The notes: generated from the sequence alone by a model not told the origin. Counted from the stretch's first letter, positions 2,071-20,723 are shown. The stretch is 64,000 nt of DNA from an uncultured bacterium (GCA_937951485.1 CALEDJ010000034.1:62001-126000), one strand, 5' to 3'. Made by a program: numbers and translations.

Positions 2071-2199
2071 ATGAAGCACGTTCGTACTATCAGCAGAAAA
2101 CCCGCAAAGGCCGCTGACGTCACGATTGGCCAGGTGATAGCAGTGATTGCGGCGATTCTGGAAGTAATCGGCAGCGCATTGGTTTCCAAAAACGTCTAA
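2071..2199 (+). CDS. Small peptide A of the MKH-x3-IS array (42 aa)
   Basis: ATG 2071 is preceded by AAGGAG at 2057-2062 with eight-base spacing, and the frame closes with TAA at 2197-2199. The peptide starts MKHVRTISRKPAKAAD and continues as a hydrophobic helix-like stretch (TIGQVIAVIAAILEVIG) ending SALVSKNV. It has no Cys. The first nine residues match those of four more small genes immediately downstream, which is the main evidence that it is real. It has its own promoter and a probable terminator. I do not recognise the family. The layout (constant N-terminus, variable C-terminus, next to an RRE/SPASM-like protein and an exporter) suggests a precursor peptide with leader and core; that is inference. 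Confidence 0.65.
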   Translation: MKHVRTISRKPAKAADVTIGQVIAVIAAILEVIGSALVSKNV

Positions 2200-2349: not shown

Positions 2350-2520
2350 ATGGCACATATGAAATCCATCACCCGACCGGTGATGGCCGCGAGCATGTGC
2401 GACGACATTCGCAGCGATTTCCAGGCGCGATTGTGTTTCGTGCTCGAGTTTCTCACCGGTTTCATTTTCCCGATAATTGAGGCATCACTCCAGGGCAAAT
2501 ATCCGTCCAATTCCAACTGA
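2350..2520 (+). CDS. Small peptide B of the MKH-x3-IS array (56 aa)
   Basis: ATG 2350 follows GGAGG at 2335-2339 with ten-base spacing. The start reads MAHMKSITRP, which aligns residue for residue with peptide A over nine positions (M-K/A-H-hydrophobic-basic-S/T-I-S/T-R). An in-frame ATG at 2284 gives a longer product but has no ribosome binding site and would bury the shared motif. The C-terminal part is hydrophobic and aromatic (CFVLEFLTGFIFPIIEA) and ends in a polar Ser/Asn tail. It holds two Cys, at about residues 16 and 28. Function unknown; proposed precursor peptide. Confidence 0.55.
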   Translation: MAHMKSITRPVMAASMCDDIRSDFQARLCFVLEFLTGFIFPIIEASLQGKYPSNSN

Positions 2521-2569: not shown

Positions 2570-2689
2570 GTGAAGCGTCTGCGCCCTATTTCCAGGACGC
2601 CCAAGATTGCCGCGTCCGTCGCTCCCGAAGTGAAATTGACAATCATCGTGCAATTCATCGACATTTATCAGCAGAAAATGGGGTATTAG
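2570..2689 (+). CDS. Small peptide C of the MKH-x3-IS array (39 aa)
   Basis: GTG 2570 follows AAGGAA at 2557-2562 with seven-base spacing and ends at TAG 2687-2689. The peptide begins MKRLRPISRTPKIAAS, which fits the array motif, then continues EVKLTIIVQFIDIYQQKMGY, an amphipathic or hydrophobic helix-like tail. No Cys. A longer in-frame version from 2477 would bury the motif and lacks a good ribosome binding site. Function unknown; same proposed class as peptides A, B, D and E. Confidence 0.6.
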   Translation: MKRLRPISRTPKIAASVAPEVKLTIIVQFIDIYQQKMGY

Positions 2690-2731: not shown

Positions 2732-2887
2732 GTGAAACATCTGCAATGTCTGACCAGACCGCCGGCGATCGCCAACCAGCCGACACCGGAGCAGAAACTG
2801 GCGTTTATTGAAGCGGTGCTTCGCATGTTCATCCCGATTGTGCGGAACAAGAATCCGCGCAATCCCGTGGAAACGACCTCTTCATAG
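2732..2887 (+). CDS. Small peptide D of the MKH-x3-IS array (51 aa)
   Basis: GTG 2732 has GGAGA at 2718-2722 with nine-base spacing; the stop is TAG 2885-2887. The start MKHLQCLTRPPAIANQ matches the array motif with L-T in place of I-S. After PTPEQKL comes a hydrophobic helix-like block (AFIEAVLRMFIPIV) and a polar tail rich in Asn, Arg and Ser. Peptides C and D share a P-E-x-K-L/Q-K-L turn before their hydrophobic block, which supports common descent. One Cys at residue 6. Function unknown; proposed precursor peptide. Confidence 0.55.
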   Translation: MKHLQCLTRPPAIANQPTPEQKLAFIEAVLRMFIPIVRNKNPRNPVETTSS

Positions 2888-2988: not shown

Positions 2989-3108
2989 ATGAAGCATATC
3001 AAGAAAATTTCGACGGTGCGGGCGGATGCGTTCACGGATTTCATGAATGCCATCTGGCGGGCTTGGCAGGATTTCCGCTACGCCAAGAAGAACGAAATCT
3101 ACGGCTGA
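2989..3108 (+). CDS. Small peptide E of the MKH-x3-IS array (39 aa)
   Basis: ATG 2989 has GGAG at 2978-2981 with seven-base spacing; the stop is TGA 3106-3108. The start MKHIKKISTVRADAF matches the first eight array positions but has Thr where the others have Arg. Its C-terminus differs from the other four: it is aromatic and charged (AIWRAWQDFRYAKKNEIYG), with two Trp and two Tyr, rather than aliphatic. It lies 82 bases before the first GNAT gene and is the copy nearest the processing operon. Function unknown; proposed precursor peptide. Confidence 0.6.
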   Translation: MKHIKKISTVRADAFTDFMNAIWRAWQDFRYAKKNEIYG

Positions 3109-3190: not shown

Positions 3191-3721
3191 ATGATTCAAG
3201 GCATATACACCTGCATACGCACAACGGACCCGGACGATGCTCCGGCCCTGCACGGTCTGTACGACCTGCAACGGCCGCGCGCAGCATTGCTGGACATGCG
3301 CCGCGAGCCGATCATGCCCACGGTGGATGAATTGCGGGAGATGCTGGGCCGTAAAGAGGCAGTACGCGGCGCATTTTTCACCATTGAAAACAGAATGGGG
3401 GAAATAGTCGGGTTTTGCGGGCTGCGCAGCGTGAGCGCCGAGGCCCGCTTTGCGGAAGCCACCCTGATGATGTGTAAAGAATCGGATTGCGCCGGACCGG
3501 AGGCAAGCGAAGCCCTCGCATTTCTCCGCAGCCGGGGCTTCAACTGGTTGCGAATGCGCAAACTGGTCGCGCATTGCCTGGACCGTGAAACCGCCTTACG
3601 CGATGCTCTGCTGCGTCATGGGTTCCAGAGCGAAGGCGTACAGCGGGAGGTCTTTTACGCCGCAGGGCGGTGGCATAATCTCGAAGTGCTCAGCCTCTTT
3701 GCGGAAACCGCGGGCGAATAG
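3191..3721 (+). CDS. GNAT-family N-acyltransferase (RimJ/RimL-like), first of the operon
   Basis: A 176-residue GNAT-fold protein. The N-terminal strand and helix pattern (IRTTDPDDAPALHGLYD), the central strand around FFTIENRMGEIVGFCGLRS and the late block from LVAHCLDRETALRDALLRHG to the W-H-x-L-E ending all match RimJ/RimL-type GNATs. The usual acetyl-CoA loop (Q/R-x2-G-x-G/A) is not clear around residues 95-110, so catalysis may be weak. ATG 3191 lacks a strong ribosome binding site. The next gene starts 12 bases downstream. GNAT acyltransferases are known maturases in lipo-RiPP systems (goadvionins, selidamides); acting on the adjacent peptides is inference. Confidence 0.75.
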   Translation: MIQGIYTCIRTTDPDDAPALHGLYDLQRPRAALLDMRREPIMPTVDELREMLGRKEAVRGAFFTIENRMGEIVGFCGLRSVSAEARFAEATLMMCKESDCAGPEASEALAFLRSRGFNWLRMRKLVAHCLDRETALRDALLRHGFQSEGVQREVFYAAGRWHNLEVLSLFAETAGE

Positions 3722-3733
3722 AAAGGGAAAGCG

Positions 3734-4363
3734 GTGCCGTTTTCGACGGAGACATGGATACGCCGGGCGGACCGGGAAGATCTGGACACGGTGATCGGCT
3801 GGATGGACGATCCGGATTTCCAACGTTTTCTCTATGGTGATCCGGCGCGGTCACCCAAACAGATTCGCGAGCAGATCGTCTCCATGCTCGGCCGCACGGC
3901 GGGGCACACGATGCCCGGCGGCGTCTATCTCATCCTGGACTCGAAGCGGCATGGCCCGATTGGCCTGATTTCTCTCCAGAATATCAGTTGGCGCAACCGT
4001 TCCTGCAACATCGAGTTGTATATCGGCAATGCCGCCGCCCGCAGCCGGATAACCGCCGCCATTGCGATTTACCGCACACTGGAATACTGCTTCGATGAAC
4101 TCAACCTGCACCGCGTCGGCGCGATCATCTACGCTTTCAATACAGCGTCCTGGCGAATCTTCGAGAAGGCCGGCGCGGTGCGGGAACTGACGCTACGCGA
4201 CCACATCGTCCGCGACGGCCAGACCCACGACATGTACGGCTACGGCCTGCTCCGCCCGGAATTCGAGGCGCTTCGCGCGCGCTATCAACGCCAGTCCGAA
4301 GATGTTTCCCTCCGCGCAATGATTGAATATCTGGCGCGCGAGGAAACGGGTGCGCCGTCGTGA
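3734..4363 (+). CDS. GNAT-family N-acyltransferase, second of the operon
   Basis: A 209-residue GNAT. GTG 3734 follows AAAGGGAAAG. The sequence begins with the family pattern WIRRADREDLDTVIGWMDD. It has a central R-S-R-I-T-A-A segment in the place of the CoA-binding R-x2-G-x-G/A loop, and then the RimJ/RimL hallmark NTASWRIFEKAGA. The glycines of the loop are replaced, so CoA binding may be altered. The C-terminal 30 residues (RARYQRQSEDVSLRAMIEYL) extend past the usual fold. The stop overlaps the GTG start of the CPBP gene (4360), which indicates translational coupling. Likely role: acyl transfer to a peptide or small molecule of the cluster (inference). Confidence 0.8.
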   Translation: MPFSTETWIRRADREDLDTVIGWMDDPDFQRFLYGDPARSPKQIREQIVSMLGRTAGHTMPGGVYLILDSKRHGPIGLISLQNISWRNRSCNIELYIGNAAARSRITAAIAIYRTLEYCFDELNLHRVGAIIYAFNTASWRIFEKAGAVRELTLRDHIVRDGQTHDMYGYGLLRPEFEALRARYQRQSEDVSLRAMIEYLAREETGAPS

Positions 4364-5064
4364 GGATTCTTTTTTTCCTCTGCTTCGCCGCGTATGTCGT
4401 CCATACCATGCTGGCGAACCGGCGGGACGATCCCGCGCACCGGCGCGTCACGGGGGCGATGCTGCTGATCCAGACGCCGCTCTTGTTGTTGGCCTGCCAC
4501 TTCGCCTGGCAGCGCGGCGTGTTCTCGCGCGATTTGGTTTCCCCGCTGCATATCGGGGCGGGGCTGCTGATCGGCCATGTCATCTTTGCCTGCTCGCTGT
4601 TAATCACCCACGGTGTCTGGCGGGATGCGGCGGCGCATTTCGTGCAGGTCGGCCCCTTCCTTCGCTTTCTCGTGGAGGCGCCGATGATCATGCTGCGCTT
4701 TATCACTGTCAGCATCACGGAAGAAATCATCTATCGCGCGGCGGCGCAGCCGTTGCTGACGGCGTGGACGGGGCGGCCCCTGCTTTCCATTGTGATTGTG
4801 GCGCTCGCCTTCGCCGTTGTACACAAGCATTTTCTCAGGAACCCGGTGGTGCAGTCCGGGGAATTCCTGGCTTTTTCGCTGCTGCTGGGCGGGCTATACT
4901 ACTGGACAAACAGCCTCAGTCTCGTGGTGGCGGTTCATGTCCTGCGCAATCTGGAGAGTCTGTACCTGGAGTATCTGATGAAGACGGAAGAACTGGGCGA
5001 CGCCCAGCGCGCGCTGAATGCGCTGGAGCAGACCTATCAACGCCTGCCCGGAGAACGCGTATGA
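4360..5064 (+). CDS. CPBP-family intramembrane metalloprotease
   Basis: A 234-residue polytopic membrane protein starting at GTG 4360, overlapping the previous stop. It carries the three CPBP (Abi/Rce1-type) motifs: E121-E122-x3-R126 in SITEEIIYR, F151-x3-H155 in FAVVHKH, and H193-x3-N197 in HVLRN. Several hydrophobic segments fit six to eight membrane helices. CPBP proteins are glutamate-type intramembrane proteases; in bacteria many sit in bacteriocin or peptide clusters, where they take part in maturation or self-immunity. Here the gene lies between acyltransferases and an exporter and overlaps the ABC ATPase by ATGA, so leader removal or immunity is a reasonable inference. Confidence 0.85.
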   Translation: MRILFFLCFAAYVVHTMLANRRDDPAHRRVTGAMLLIQTPLLLLACHFAWQRGVFSRDLVSPLHIGAGLLIGHVIFACSLLITHGVWRDAAAHFVQVGPFLRFLVEAPMIMLRFITVSITEEIIYRAAAQPLLTAWTGRPLLSIVIVALAFAVVHKHFLRNPVVQSGEFLAFSLLLGGLYYWTNSLSLVVAVHVLRNLESLYLEYLMKTEELGDAQRALNALEQTYQRLPGERV

Positions 5065-6110
5065 ACCGGGAATATCTGGTGGAATTGGACCGCGTGGACA
5101 AAGCCTTCGTCACCCGCCATTTTTTTCACATTGATGAGGATACGCGCACCCGCCGCATCTACAACCGCCGCCTGGTGCGCGCCGCCGACGCCATCACCTT
5201 CGGCATCCGTCCCGGCGAAATCTTCGGCCTGCTCGGACCGAACGGCGCGGGCAAGACCACCACGGTGAAGATGGTGTCGGGACTCGTGCGGCCGGACGCC
5301 GGCGCGGTCTACGTGGACGGCATGCATGTGGAGAAAAAGCGTAAGAAGGTGCTGCGCAAGGTGGGTGTGGTGCTGGAGGGCACGCGCACAAGCATGTGGC
5401 CGCTGACGCCGCTGGAAAACCTCATGTACTACGGCAACCTCAAGGACGTGCGCGGCAAGGTGTTGCGGGACCGCGCCCACGAATTGCTGGATTTCATCGG
5501 CCTCAAAGAGAAGAAGAACGTGCAGGTGCGGCGGCTTTCGCGCGGCCAGAAACAGAAACTGGCCATCTGCATTGCCCTGATTGCCGATCCCCTTGTGCTC
5601 CTGCTCGACGAACCCACCACCGGCCTCGACGTGCAAAGCAGCCGCGCCATCAAGGACAAGATTCTCGAACTCACCCGTCAGCAGGGGCGTTCCGTGCTGG
5701 TGACGACGCACGACATGCACGTCGCCCAGGAGTTGTGCGACCGCATCGGCATCATCAACAAAGGCAAACTCATCGCGTGCAAACCCACTGCGGAACTGCT
5801 GGACCTCTTTTCGGGGCATGTCTTTGTGTTCAAACTGGACCGGGCACCGGACCCGGCCCGTGTGCGTACCGTCCCCGGCGTGCTGGATTGCACCGTGGAA
5901 CAAAGCAACGACGGGCCGGCGCTGGTCTTGCGCGTGACGGATGAACCGGCACAGCGATCCGAGGGTTTTTATCGCGTCATAGAACTGCTGCGCGAGGGCG
6001 GCTTTCAACTCCGCAGCCTGACCCAGCGCCAGCAGAACCTGGAAAGCGTTTTTCTGCAATTGACGGGCGAAATCGTGGAAGAGCGACCGGAATACACTGG
6101 AGAGGAGTAG
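5061..6110 (+). CDS. ABC transporter ATP-binding protein (ABC-2 exporter type)
   Basis: A 349-residue ATPase starting at ATG 5061 inside the stop of the previous gene. It has Walker A GPNGAGKTT (about residues 59-67), a signature written LSRGQ, Walker B LVLLLDEPTTGLD and a switch His in LVTTHD. A 35-residue insertion before the first core strand (HIDEDTRTRRIYNRRL) and a 90-residue C-terminal accessory region are typical of drug, antibiotic or polysaccharide ABC-2 exporters. It pairs with the permease that starts two bases after its stop. Likely role: export of the cluster product, or immunity against it. Confidence 0.92.
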   Translation: MNREYLVELDRVDKAFVTRHFFHIDEDTRTRRIYNRRLVRAADAITFGIRPGEIFGLLGPNGAGKTTTVKMVSGLVRPDAGAVYVDGMHVEKKRKKVLRKVGVVLEGTRTSMWPLTPLENLMYYGNLKDVRGKVLRDRAHELLDFIGLKEKKNVQVRRLSRGQKQKLAICIALIADPLVLLLDEPTTGLDVQSSRAIKDKILELTRQQGRSVLVTTHDMHVAQELCDRIGIINKGKLIACKPTAELLDLFSGHVFVFKLDRAPDPARVRTVPGVLDCTVEQSNDGPALVLRVTDEPAQRSEGFYRVIELLREGGFQLRSLTQRQQNLESVFLQLTGEIVEERPEYTGEE

Positions 6111-6111
6111 C

Positions 6112-6948
6112 ATGGGTTTCTTTCTTGTGATGAAGGCCGAGATTGTGCGGTCGTTCATCATCATGCGGCGTTACTGGTTCCGTACCATCACCGGCATGAT
6201 CCTCGGCTACGGGATGCTCATGGTACTGATCGCGGGCTTCATCTACAGCCGCCCCGTCGTGGAAGAAAGCATGAGCCGTTTTGACGATCCCACAGCGGCG
6301 ACGAACTTCGTGCTGGGCTTCATCATCGGCATGTTCGCTTTCGGCGTGGTAGGCATGTTCACGCAGGGCATCCAGGAAATGGCGCAGACCGGCGTGCTTG
6401 AGCAACTCTGCATGAGTCCGCACGGCCTGATCTTCAATTTCCTGGCGCGCACGGCGGTAGGTTCGGTGTACACCATCCTCTCCTCCGGCGTCATGGTGTG
6501 GCTGGTGACGTTGACCGTGGGAGGGCGTCTGTATTTCGACGCTGCAGCCGTGTTGATCTTATTGACCCTGACTTTCGTCAATCTTCTTGGATTCGGATTC
6601 ATGGTCGGCGGGCTGGTGCTGGTGTTCAAGCAGGTGGGCCAGATCGCGATTCTCCTGCGCATGGGGCTGTTCGCGTTGGCCGTCTTTGCGCGCGAAGAGA
6701 TGCTGCACCAGGGCTGGGCGCTGGCCGCCGTCACCCACGCCCTGCCGGTCACCGACGCGGCCATCTGCCTCAAGTATGTGCTCATCCAGGATCAGGGCCG
6801 GCTCACAGGCGATTTCATGCCCGTCTATGCGCATCCTTCGTTCTTCTGGTTGATTGTGAGTTGCATGGCCTGGACGGCCATCGGCATCGTCGTCTTTGAA
6901 TTCATGGAACGCTGGAGCCGCTCCAGAGGCACCCTGGGAGCATACTGA
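6112..6948 (+). CDS. ABC-2 type permease
   Basis: A 278-residue integral membrane protein with about six hydrophobic segments: residues near 20-42, 60-85, 103-135, 145-170, 185-200 and 235-258. The order and the long central helix pair are typical of ABC-2 permeases such as DrrB, and the gene follows an ABC-2-type ATPase with a one-base gap. The stop overlaps the start of the next gene as TGATG. It most likely forms a homodimeric channel with the upstream ATPase. Substrate unknown; the context favours a peptide. Confidence 0.88.
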   Translation: MGFFLVMKAEIVRSFIIMRRYWFRTITGMILGYGMLMVLIAGFIYSRPVVEESMSRFDDPTAATNFVLGFIIGMFAFGVVGMFTQGIQEMAQTGVLEQLCMSPHGLIFNFLARTAVGSVYTILSSGVMVWLVTLTVGGRLYFDAAAVLILLTLTFVNLLGFGFMVGGLVLVFKQVGQIAILLRMGLFALAVFAREEMLHQGWALAAVTHALPVTDAAICLKYVLIQDQGRLTGDFMPVYAHPSFFWLIVSCMAWTAIGIVVFEFMERWSRSRGTLGAY

Positions 6949-8891
6949 TGGCCGGGCCGGCGCTCCACCGCTATGAACGCGACGGCAGACGCTACGCCGT
7001 GGATCCGGAAACCTGTTTCTGTTTCGAGTGCGACGCGGTGTCCTGGGACGTCCTGGAGCATTACCCGCATGCGACGCTGAACCGCATCCTGCATCTGCTG
7101 CAGGACCGCCACCCCGAAAAGGAAATCCTGGAGGTGGCGGGGGAACTCGAATGGCTGCGCGCCGCAAAGTCCATTTTCACCGTGCCGAAGCAGGAAGACT
7201 ACGCCAAACGCTTCGAGATTGAGCGCGGCCTGAAAAGAATGACTGTGCTGTGCGCGGGCAGTGCGCAAACGCAGGCATCCCGACGATGGTTCGCGCGGCG
7301 TGGTGACAATAGCGCGAATCGCGGCGGCGAAGACGCCGTTTCCGATCGCCTGCTGGCGGCGGCGCAACTGCTGCTGGCGAGGTCCGGCAAGCAGCGGGAA
7401 CTGCGCCTCGAATGCGTCTGGCCCCGGCCGCCCGCGGACCCGGCAGTCATCACCGCCTGCTGTCGCAAGGTCCGCGCCCTGGCGCGGCTGGCGGACAAAG
7501 AGGTCCGGATTTCAATCATGATAGACCCCCTGCCCGCCTCGGCGGATGTGTTTCGCGGCCATGATCTCGCGGCTTCCCTTGAAATCAGCGGCGACATCGG
7601 CGATGACGCCGCCGATGCCCTGCGTCAATTCCTGCGCGCCGCGGCGCGCGGGCCGGAGGCGGCGGCGAAAGCCGCGCCGGACGCGCCCGGAATGGGCATC
7701 CGCATCGTGATTCGCCCCGGTCATCCCGACTTCGCGGGCGTGGTACAGGCATGCCGCGCCGCCGGCGTGGGGCACATCGAACTGGATTTGGAGGGGGCCT
7801 ACGTCGCGCATCCGGCGCTGGACCCGGCGGCGATGGCGAAGACGCTGGAGGCGGTCGCGCTGGATTACGCGGAGGAACTCGTCCAGGGACGCTATTGGCG
7901 GCTGGAGCCAGTCGCGGGCCTGTTCGCGCGCATTTATCATGGGACGCCGCAGGCCCGCACCGACGACGCGGGGACTTATGCGCTGGCCGTGGCGGAAGAC
8001 GGCGGCATTTATCCCGGGCGGCACTTCATTCCGTGGGACGCCTTCCGCGCCGGGGCGCTCGACGAGGCAACCATCGTCGAAGCGGCGCTCCGGCGTTTTG
8101 ACGATGCAGGCGCGCTCACCACGCGGCCATGCCTGCGCTGTTGGGCGCGGAACCTGTGCGGCGGCGGCGCGGCGGCGGTGCACCAGGCGCTCAGCGGTTC
8201 CTTCCGCGCGCCGCATCCGCCCTGGTGCGACGCGCAACGAGGCTGGATGGAGGCGGCCATCGCCGCATTCAACCGGCTTGCCTCGGAGGGCGTCAATTTC
8301 GCCCGCATCCACGAGGCGATGCGCCCCGCGAAACGTCCGGGCCTGCTTGCCATGGTGCGCGCCGCCTTCCGCATGCACATCGGCCTGCGCCCCATCGAGG
8401 AGGCCGACGCGCCGCTGCTGGCCAAATGGGAAAACTGGAACGACGCCGCCTATTTCACCTTCAATGAACACGGCCTGCTCATGGCCTCGCAGTACGACCG
8501 GGAAATGGATGCGCTGCATCCACTCGGCATCGAACAGGAATTCCTGTTGCTGCGCCGCAAAGGCGACCCGTTCGGGCTGCTGAAAATCCGGCCCGAAGCG
8601 ATGCCCGGCGTGGCCATGGCTTGGATTTACTTCCGCAACCCCCGCGACTACGCCGAGGAAAAAGTCCGTACCTCGTTCCGGTACATGCTGCGCGAAGCCC
8701 TCGCCCGGCAGGGTATCCAGCGCATTCTCATCCCCGCCGGCCCCGGTGAACACGCTTTGGCCGATTTCCTCGCCGCCGTCGGCTTTGCGCCCTGCGCCAC
8801 GCTCCGCGAGGCCCTCTACCTCCACGGCGCATACCATGATATGTGCCTCTTTTCATTCATGTTTGACGAGGAGAAGATGGCCCCGCGTTGA
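6948..8891 (+). CDS. RRE / degenerate radical-SAM / SPASM-like protein fused to a GNAT domain
   Basis: A 647-residue protein translationally coupled to the permease. Residues 5-78 look like a PqqD/RRE peptide-binding domain as found at the N-terminus of radical SAM peptide maturases (YERDGRRYAVDPETCF...VLEHY). Residues 95-340 fit a radical-SAM-like barrel in length and strand pattern, but the CxxxCxxC motif is absent; the expected site reads TVLCAGSAQTQASRR. Residues 343-445 resemble a SPASM domain (GGIYPGRHF, then PCLRCWARNLCGGG) and keep C395-x2-C398-x5-C404 and C427, while other SPASM Cys are lost. Residues 476-640 are a GNAT domain (IGLRPIEEADAPLLAKWEN). I infer a peptide-binding scaffold that presents small peptides to an acyltransferase. 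The domain calls are by eye and need profile searches. Confidence 0.65.
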   Translation: MAGPALHRYERDGRRYAVDPETCFCFECDAVSWDVLEHYPHATLNRILHLLQDRHPEKEILEVAGELEWLRAAKSIFTVPKQEDYAKRFEIERGLKRMTVLCAGSAQTQASRRWFARRGDNSANRGGEDAVSDRLLAAAQLLLARSGKQRELRLECVWPRPPADPAVITACCRKVRALARLADKEVRISIMIDPLPASADVFRGHDLAASLEISGDIGDDAADALRQFLRAAARGPEAAAKAAPDAPGMGIRIVIRPGHPDFAGVVQACRAAGVGHIELDLEGAYVAHPALDPAAMAKTLEAVALDYAEELVQGRYWRLEPVAGLFARIYHGTPQARTDDAGTYALAVAEDGGIYPGRHFIPWDAFRAGALDEATIVEAALRRFDDAGALTTRPCLRCWARNLCGGGAAAVHQALSGSFRAPHPPWCDAQRGWMEAAIAAFNRLASEGVNFARIHEAMRPAKRPGLLAMVRAAFRMHIGLRPIEEADAPLLAKWENWNDAAYFTFNEHGLLMASQYDREMDALHPLGIEQEFLLLRRKGDPFGLLKIRPEAMPGVAMAWIYFRNPRDYAEEKVRTSFRYMLREALARQGIQRILIPAGPGEHALADFLAAVGFAPCATLREALYLHGAYHDMCLFSFMFDEEKMAPR

Positions 8892-18797: not shown

Positions 18798-19670
18798 ATG
18801 CAAGGAAAAGGAAAAGGATTTACCCTGATTGAGTTGCTGGTCGTGATTGCGATTATCGGAATTCTTGCGGCGATTCTTTTGCCTGCGTTAGCGCGCGCGC
18901 GCGAAGCGGCGCGTCGATCGAGTTGCCAGAACAACCTCAAGCAGATGGGGCTCGTGTTCAAGATGTACTCCAATGAGTCTCCAGGCCAGAAGTTTCCCAG
19001 CCTGAAAAAGTATTACGGTGACGCATGCAACCGGGTGACGGGCTTTAATGCGTTTTTCGATGGCACACAGGTGTATCCGGAGTACCTGACGGACCCCAAG
19101 GTGATTGTGTGTCCCTCAGATGCCGACGGCAATTATACGGACTACCTGGAAGGGGGCATAGAAGGCAATCCCGTGAACCCGTGCAGGATTCGCGACCTCT
19201 CGTATGCGTATTACGCATGGACATTCATGGAACGGGAAGTCTTCACAGATACATCGGTAATCAATGCAATTACAGATGCAGGCCAGGTATGGGGTATTGT
19301 CAATATAGATTTTCTGAATGGATTGGGAACGCTCCTGGCCCGCATCCCACAGGAATGGGGGGTGAATGCGAATCCCGCCCTCTTTGAAGAAGACATTAAG
19401 GAAAACAACCTGGTCATCTATCGTCTGCGGGAGGGCATCGAGCGGTTCTTCATCACCGACATCAATAATCCAGCGGCCAGCAGCAGGGCGCAGAGCGAGA
19501 TTTTCGTGATGCAGGACGACTTCCGGGGTGGTATTTCAACCATTACATGGTCCAACCACATTCCCGGTGGCGCCAACATCCTCTACATGGACGGGCATGT
19601 GGAATTCATCCGCTATCCGGGCGCGTTCCCCATTTGCAAGGCGTGGACCATTCTCCTGGAAAACCTCTAG
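18798..19670 (+). CDS. Type II pseudopilin-like protein with H-x9-DG ending (DUF1559-like), copy 1
   Basis: A 290-residue protein. The N-terminus is a type IV prepilin signal: short basic leader, then [19 protein letters not shown] with Glu at +5, cut by PilD-type peptidase. The helix continues [18 protein letters not shown]. The C-terminal part has the H-x9-DG pattern ([13 protein letters not shown]), followed by HVEFIRYPG, as in the large pseudopilin families of Planctomycetes, Lentisphaerae and related bacteria. The block [19 protein letters not shown] is nearly constant across the four copies in this window, while the middle differs. These proteins are membrane-anchored and surface or periplasm exposed; their role is not established. 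Confidence 0.92.
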
Positions 19671-19747: not shown

Positions 19748-19796
19748 TGGGACGGCGCATGGTTAAAAGGTATAACAACAGATGGAGAATGAGAAA

Positions 19797-20723
19797 ATGA
19801 CAAAAACGAGAGGATTCACACTGATTGAACTGCTGGTGGTGATCGCGATCATCGGTATCCTGGCGGCGATATTGCTGCCGGCGCTGGCGCGGGCGCGCGA
19901 AGCGGCGCGGCGCTCCAGTTGCCAGAACAACCTCAAGCAGTACGGGATTATCTTCAAAATGTACGCCAACGAATCGAAAGGCGAGAAATATCCGACCAAC
20001 AAGTTGTGGTCGTGCCAGGGCACGACGGGCTGGAACGGGTCGGACTGGACTGCCGCGCACATCCAGTTCTACCCGGAGTACATGACAGACCCGAAGATTG
20101 CCCTATGTCCTTCGGCCACGACCGGTACGAATGTAGGAGAGGTTTTTAATTTTGTCGAAACCAGAAATCCTCCATTGACGCAATGGTGGGATGGCACATC
20201 GTTTCAGCCGACCGATTTGACGGACCTCACGAAGTTCTATCCCTGCGAAGTGGACAGTTCCAGCACCAGTTACCTCTATCTCGGTTGGGTGACCAATATC
20301 CCCATTCTGACCAGTTACACCGGCCCGGTGGACCCGCCGACCATGGGCGGCATCGCTTCCATTCCCGTGTATGGCGGTGACATTCTTTCGGCGTTTGGAA
20401 CAATGAATGCGATGTTGGAGAGTGTCACCGGAATTGATCAAGACGTGGTCGCGGCGACCAGTTACGGCACGGAAACGATCTATCGTGTGCGTGAAGGCAT
20501 CGAGCGCTTTATGATCACGGACATCAACAATCCGGCGGCGAGCGCCCAGGCCCAGAGCGAAATCCCGATTATGGGCGACTGGGTCAGCATTGACCTTGGC
20601 CAGGAATACAACCACGCCCCCGGCGGATGCAATTTCCTGTACATGGACGGGCATGTTGAGTTTATCCGCTATCCGGGCAAGTGGCCCGTCTCGCAACTGA
20701 TGGCGGTGTTGCAGGGGCTGTAA
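19797..20723 (+). CDS. Type II pseudopilin-like protein with H-x9-DG ending (DUF1559-like), copy 2
   Basis: A 308-residue product from ATG 19797, which has GGAG at 19784-19787 with nine-base spacing; an in-frame ATG at 19782 would add five residues. The N-terminus [19 protein letters not shown] is a prepilin signal. The first 60 residues are almost identical to copy 1, and the ending keeps [14 protein letters not shown], then HVEFIRYPG. The middle has a unique loop rich in Thr, Pro and Gly. Tandem placement with copy 1 suggests local duplication followed by divergence of the exposed part. Confidence 0.92.

Follow-up and report, generated by a model that had tools for sequence, protein, structure and literature searches.

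MAT, the protein described here, is a relative of the radical SAM/SPASM peptide maturases that has lost the site of the radical cluster, has kept one auxiliary cluster site and has gained a GNAT-fold domain at its C-terminus. It is encoded in a window of 64,000 nucleotides from an uncultured bacterium (all positions below are counted from the first letter of this stretch), where it closes a cassette that is opened by small peptide genes. As the fold has been kept, the parts needed for radical chemistry have been lost and an acetyltransferase-like tail has been added, MAT probably grips and presents small peptides and does not modify them by radicals. In the reading that we prefer, with a probability of roughly 0.55, MAT is a pseudo-radical-SAM protein, stabilised at Aux II, which would serve as a leader-binding platform and work with GNAT-fold partners before the peptides undergo proteolysis and export.

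Domain architecture of MAT

The protein and its parts are as follows.

6948..8891, + strand: MAT, a pseudo-radical-SAM/SPASM-GNAT protein of 647 residues
6948..7217, + strand: RRE-like domain, residues 1-90; alignment with CteB from residue 4, predicted strands at 7-11, 14-18 and 25-28, with helices
7014..7031, + strand: CFCFEC, residues 23-28, in the predicted third RRE strand; absent from CteB
7230..7817, + strand: degenerate radical-SAM barrel, residues 95-290, without CxxxCxxC and without GGEP
7818..8282, + strand: SPASM domain, residues 291-445, Aux I ligands lost and Aux II kept
8130..8228, + strand: Aux II ligand set C395 (8130), C398 (8139), C404 (8157) and C427 (8226), aligned with C385, C388, C394 and C417 of CteB
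8373..8867, + strand: GNAT-fold domain, residues 476-640, canonical acyl-CoA loop missing

The initial annotation had proposed an RRE-like start, a barrel-length middle and a partial set of SPASM cysteines, and this layout was borne out by profiles and by structure prediction alike. Among the NCBIfam models, the SCIFF maturase TIGR03974 is the best for MAT (1.1e-18, in two stretches), though its 67.3 bits do not reach the equivalog cut-off of 425 bits; the SPASM model TIGR04085 scores 28.7 bits, above its cut-off of 27. Pfam Radical_SAM (PF04055) gave no match to MAT. A profile of the MAT family matches CteB (5wgg) end to end over positions 4-433, from the RRE through the barrel to the SPASM domain, with an E-value of 5e-44. 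The AlphaFold model, built with 42 sequences (pLDDT 88.0, pTM 0.77), predicts the barrel, and it was observed through Foldseek and VIA-align that the model is closest to CteB (Z 27.3, rmsd 3.6, 390 residues aligned), followed by anSMEcpe (Z 19.4). When the prediction is set beside a SCIFF maturase, both the barrel and the SPASM fold are present. Confidence is low in parts of residues 108-121, the loop after barrel strand 1, which is where the SAM cluster would sit. According to the model, MAT is an RRE, a partial TIM barrel and a SPASM domain arranged as in CteB, with a RimL/SpeG-like GNAT at the C-terminus. By homology to the RRE of CteB, and as modelled, the first domain of MAT is the RRE-like domain expected in a RiPP system with an RRE.

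Conservation is distributed unevenly over these parts. The mean majority fraction is 0.69 in the Aux II region, 0.66 in the RRE, which comes second, 0.58 in the GNAT domain and 0.38 in the barrel; in the latter, the least conserved part, 4 out of 196 columns reach 90% or more. The low value of the barrel against the high ones of the RRE, Aux II and GNAT regions is as expected if the barrel now acts as a scaffold.

Loss of the radical site and retention of Aux II

The cysteine triad of the SAM cluster had been reported missing, and this was confirmed well beyond the single protein: besides the missing PF04055 match, CxxxCxxC is found in none of 50 distinct MAT homologues, and no cysteine column of the barrel reaches half of the rows. 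Aligned residue by residue, the MAT family has a gap, a gap and a tryptophan opposite the three SAM-cluster cysteines of CteB, and FFGGEP of CteB, which carries the GGE(P) motif for the SAM amino group, falls on non-conserved residues. A local mutation or an assembly error is ruled out as the cause, as none of the 50 homologues has an intact motif; judged from these homologues, the loss is ancestral. It is almost certain that, with such residues, MAT would carry out no radical chemistry. MAT has no known route to a radical and should, therefore, work differently from a SCIFF maturase.

The auxiliary clusters had separate fates. The Aux I cysteines of CteB align to proline, to serine or glycine and to mixed residues, while those of Aux II align to cysteine in 42/42 MAT sequences, and C395, C398, C404 and C427 are invariant in 50/50 homologues. 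The seven-cysteine SPASM motif for two clusters (CX9-15GX4C...CX2CX5CX3C...C, PMC6231123) is reduced in MAT to these four. Four cysteines are known to ligate Aux II in CteB, anSME, MftC and SuiB (PMC10452713), and the SPASM motif has the same CX2CX5C...C spacing as MAT (PMC6231123). From this ligation and spacing, together with the residue alignment with CteB, the four cysteines make up a complete Aux II site. Thus, the 'partial SPASM Cys set' of the initial annotation names the right residues, only they are not a random remainder. It is likely that the site holds a [4Fe-4S] cluster rather than zinc or nothing, as its conserved ligands suggest.

The same inventory had overlooked three near-invariant cysteines close to the N-terminus, C23, C25 and C28. 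C25 and C28 are found in all homologues whose sequence spans them, and C23 in 45/50. The CFCFEC segment, with C25 and C28, is a second cysteine site in addition to Aux II. The three cysteines lie on or beside the predicted third RRE strand; in CteB the RRE takes up the leader as an added beta strand, such RREs extending their sheet with it (PMC6231123).

The cassette around MAT

The genes between the peptides and MAT are the following.

3191..3721, + strand: GNATa; PF13302 at 1.6e-7, syntenic
3734..4363, + strand: GNATb, with a SpeG/RimJ/PseH-like fold; PF13302 at 1e-18
4360..5064, + strand: CPBP (Rce1-like) intramembrane protease; PF02517 at 1e-12, EExxxR, His and HxxRN motifs kept
5061..6110, + strand: ABC ATPase (DrrA-like), Walker and signature motifs intact
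6112..6948, + strand: ABC-2 type permease; weak PF12698 match (E 1.7e-4, below cut-off), syntenic across the phylum

Across 40 larger stretches, the genes keep the order GNATa-GNATb-CPBP-ABC ATPase-permease-MAT in all but a few of the cases where the contig is long enough to show it. The small peptide genes upstream of GNATa open the cassette, and MAT closes it with an ATG that overlaps the stop codon of the permease gene. The Fe-S protein at 221-1642 and MutS were considered as further members and rejected, as they have no matches in the other loci compared. An anti-phage defence role was likewise set aside; PADLOC gives generic ATPase matches to the ABC protein only. No structured RNA was matched by Rfam in the cassette, scans of it for promoters and terminators did not rise above shuffles, and a viral structure library returned mostly GNAT-like matches and weak matches. 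The peptide system of the cassette is unnamed in Pfam and NCBIfam, and in the open-licence literature no paper was found on the MAT family or on Hydrogenedentota with radical SAM. Elsewhere in the window, two tandem prepilin-like proteins (18798-19670 and 19782-20723) have near-identical N-termini.

Three GNAT folds without the acyl-CoA loop

The C-terminal GNAT domain claimed initially holds up. Residues 475-640 match RimL (1z9u) with a Z-score of 15.6 over 159 residues and a profile E-value of 7e-7; Pfam GNAT models on MAT all stay below their cut-offs. The acyl-CoA pyrophosphate loop, Q/RxxGxG/A, is absent from 19/19 aligned MAT GNAT domains, and where RimL has FQGQGIMS, the MAT domains show a DYAxxxVR consensus with an invariant Y568. 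In all, 27 columns of the domain are conserved at 90% or more, including R481, D487, W494, E495, E519, E531, Y568 and R620.

GNATa and GNATb also lack the glycines of the loop. GNATb (AlphaFold pLDDT 86; Z 17.1 to SpeG) is the most conserved of the three GNATs and in other respects retains much of a SpeG/RimJ/PseH-like enzyme. In one lineage (L039, L040, L045 and L068), a second, more divergent copy of GNATb stands between GNATa and GNATb.

As the loop is missing from all three, they look like transferases that use another donor, or like binding modules, and the modification step may not exist at all. The initial annotation had spoken of a 'binding platform for acylation'. Its radical-SAM origin, lost cluster site and GNAT fusion are retained here, whereas the acylation is not, the loop being gone from the MAT domain and from both neighbours. 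Acyl transfer in the MAT system, with its donor and its target, is something that we infer.

Precursor peptides

Five small genes precede GNATa in the window.

2071..2199, + strand: peptide A (class I), 42 residues, leader MKHVRTISRKPAKA
2350..2520, + strand: peptide B (class II), 56 residues from 2350 or 53 from 2359, two core cysteines
2570..2689, + strand: peptide C (class III-like), 39 residues, GTG start
2732..2887, + strand: peptide D (class III), 51 residues, GTG start
2989..3108, + strand: peptide E (class IV), 39 residues, the most widespread class

When 33 cassettes were searched with a leader expression, KH[ILV]xx[ILV][ST], the 1.8 kb on the upstream side of GNATa gave 86 matches, against none on the reverse strand and none in equal downstream stretches; since the expression had been derived from these very peptides, it is the control that carries the evidence and not the count. 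No peptide was found upstream in 5/33 cassettes. In the window, the leader of peptide B is degenerate, and the peptide has homologues in other cassettes. By their cores, the peptides can be sorted into roughly four classes, which mostly follow one another in a constant order, class IV coming last and adjoining GNATa; the core of class IV resembles ADAFTNFMNAVWRAWxDFRYEKKNE. Searched with a hand-made consensus of the observed peptides, class IV is present in 54/68 genomes of the phylum and in 0/6 of those without a MAT match (Fisher p 3e-5, which overstates the independence, because the genomes lacking it are relatives of one another). Three genera have their peptide genes elsewhere in the genome, with classes, order and co-occurrence with MAT all kept. 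Such unlinked islands (L177, L178, L179, L180, L181 and L182) hold the same classes in the same order, mostly with two tandem class IV genes.

Most leader peptides (69/86) have no cysteine after residue 14, and three or more cysteines occur in 4/86. A lysine after residue 22 is found in 84/86, a count that has no null comparison. For 18 representative peptides NCBIfam gave no convincing match, one of the queries being a residue off its locus (MKHIKAISRR... for MKHVKAISRR...), which makes no difference to this outcome. From their shared leader and their position, the peptides are co-encoded precursors, as in an RRE-type RiPP system.

Distribution and descent

By profile search, MAT is present, whole or in pieces, in 62/68 genomes of Candidatus Hydrogenedentota; a 63rd tallied genome, G005, matches through the related GNATa only. 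The recurrence of one family in 62/68 genomes goes beyond chance. The six genomes without a match comprise four of a single GTDB family, one that is 60% complete, and G005, whose cassette is cut by a contig end. Among 147 genomes searched, homologues turned up across one order. When about 85,000 species genomes were scanned in a way that reaches only relatives with one of two conserved patterns, no MAT family was seen outside the phylum, the remaining matches being ordinary radical SAM/SPASM proteins. One cassette of the Hydrogenedentota type, L080 (JAACEL010000057.1), is labelled Nitrospiraceae; GTDB puts this genome (G054) in the order of the window. No full-length MAT match was obtained on plasmids, where only SPASM pieces of peaB-type maturases were found, and for this reason a mobile element was ruled out. 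In the source genome itself, the family profile matches no further protein except GNATa, and the 38 matches of PF04055 are generic radical SAM enzymes.

The tree unites the MATs in a single clade (support 100/100), on a long branch, and nesting within the SCIFF maturases is not supported. The SCIFF ancestry is, therefore, best-hit evidence. By its profile matches, MAT is a descendant of a radical SAM/SPASM maturase.

Comparison with known systems

The SCIFF maturases (CteB/ScfB, TIGR03974, ranthipeptide) share with MAT the order and fold of RRE, barrel and SPASM, and the Aux II signature CxxCWA....CGG. They differ in having CxxxCxxC, GGEP and Aux I, which MAT lacks; MAT instead has the extra CFCFEC in its RRE and the added GNAT. 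The likeness extends to the peptides, as those beside true SCIFF maturases begin with a KH[ILM]xx[ILMV] leader (MKHIKILSRNRL in Vulcanibacillus), whereas the six-cysteine core of the SCIFF partner is missing from the MAT peptides, which mostly have no core cysteine. The shared KH leader and the pattern of best hits suggest that a SCIFF-like system may have passed on leader and RRE together and that its six-cysteine core was replaced, an ancestry that the tree does not prove.

A SPASM domain with Aux II only is also seen in some AhbD proteins. In AhbD of non-methanogenic archaea, the Aux I cysteines are lost and Aux II is conserved (PMC10452713); unlike MAT, these proteins keep the radical SAM cluster. 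Similarly, a radical SAM barrel and an acetyltransferase (KAT) domain are joined in one chain in Elp3, a tRNA-modifying protein that binds a [4Fe-4S] cluster, SAM and acetyl-CoA (PMC13315578). MAT, by contrast, has lost both the radical SAM ligands and the CoA loop, and it is partnered with peptides. With GNATs of the RimL/RimJ/SpeG type, the MAT domain shares the fold and a C-terminal strand of the YHDV type, and it differs from them in its replaced acyl-CoA loop and its fusion to a pseudo-maturase. MAT is, by descent or fold as traced here, a member of the radical SAM, SPASM and GNAT groups, and by its residues it falls outside the functional radical SAM, full SPASM and canonical CoA-dependent GNAT definitions. 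No report of this domain combination was found in the open-licence literature.

Proteins of 1168 residues in two other loci (L133, ORF from 6452, + strand; L145, ORF from 9809, + strand) are apparently a separate case of a degenerate radical SAM partner, encoded directly behind an intact radical SAM/SPASM gene. They resemble MAT in a C-terminal radical SAM/SPASM module without CxxxCxxC; unlike MAT, they keep further SPASM cysteines, have another N-terminal fusion and an intact radical SAM neighbour, and branch separately in the tree. By eye, their N-terminal part looks like a terpene cyclase. The near-identical DNA of the two loci is filed under two metagenome genomes from different phyla, one of Binatota and one of Xanthobacteraceae, whose accession prefixes are similar; this is probably due to a binning error.

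Proposed working of MAT

In the proposed scheme, several leader-bearing peptides would be translated, and the RRE of MAT would bind the KH[ILV]xx[ILV][ST] leader of several different precursors. We regard leader binding as quite likely. A single [4Fe-4S] cluster, at Aux II only, would, together with the vestigial barrel, stabilise the body that carries the peptide, with no part in radical chemistry. The C-terminal GNAT fold, probably with GNATa and GNATb, would then dock on the bound core or modify it. A transfer without the usual acyl-CoA loop would call for another donor, such as an acyl-carrier protein or an aminoacyl-tRNA, or for an altered mode of CoA binding, and a lysine near the C-terminus of the peptide is a candidate target; that a GNAT-fold partner transfers a group at all is possible and somewhat doubtful. 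CPBP would remove the leader with a cut near its RxPxxA end, and the ABC pair would export the amphipathic or hydrophobic mature peptides, a step that is fairly likely. Against a radical-free platform, it should be said that the generic radical SAM enzymes of the genome could act in trans.

The catalytic signatures of MAT are all gone (radical SAM, Aux I and acyl-CoA loop), GNATa and GNATb have no loop either, the motifs of transporter and protease are intact, and the start codon of MAT sits on the permease stop. All of this would also suit an escort without any chemistry, in which MAT and its GNAT-fold partners form a leader-binding chaperone complex that maintains the solubility of the hydrophobic peptides and passes them on to the ABC exporter and CPBP. 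However, a passive escort seems to need less than the 27 strongly conserved GNAT columns, charged and aromatic ones included, and the very strong conservation of GNATb; we hold such an escort to be unlikely, even if it survives better than the other alternatives.

It is quite improbable that MAT presents the peptides to its own GNAT for acetylation or acylation from acyl-CoA through a non-standard loop. The fold is clear from the RimL match and its profile E-value, the lysines after residue 22 would offer targets, and there is precedent for GNATs that tailor RiPPs: 9iy3, titled as an iterative acetyltransferase on lasso peptides, is among the structure matches of GNATb. The missing Q/RxxGxG/A in every aligned domain and the sub-threshold Pfam scores weigh against it. 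Least probable is a redox or sensor role, in which the Aux II cluster, perhaps with C25/C28, passes electrons or senses oxygen or iron so as to gate peptide processing: the cysteines concerned are indeed invariant, but AhbD stays active after removal of the Aux II ligands under the assay used, though MftC and PqqE need theirs (PMC10452713), and the conserved cassette has no redox partner.

The leader-binding platform thus remains the preferred reading. A bolder form of it would treat both halves of MAT, the onetime radical SAM maturase and the onetime GNAT, as pseudo-enzymes that share a chain and have each given up their ancestral chemistry. MAT would then have been recruited to read leaders at the centre of a phylum-wide complex that either modifies exported amphipathic peptides of four classes, using a new donor, or assembles them, peptides which would have a core role in Hydrogenedentota; this is offered tentatively, as a rather unlikely extension.

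Biological meaning

Radical SAM/SPASM maturases are defined by their clusters. In MAT, the fold and one auxiliary cluster site have been kept across the diversification of a phylum while the radical machinery has been dropped, which lets one ask what roles Aux II and the barrel play beyond catalysis. That nearly all members of an uncultured phylum carry this peptide system speaks more for a core role than for an antibiotic of occasional use. If the MAT peptides prove to carry a new modification, the system would be more than a variant of the known maturases.
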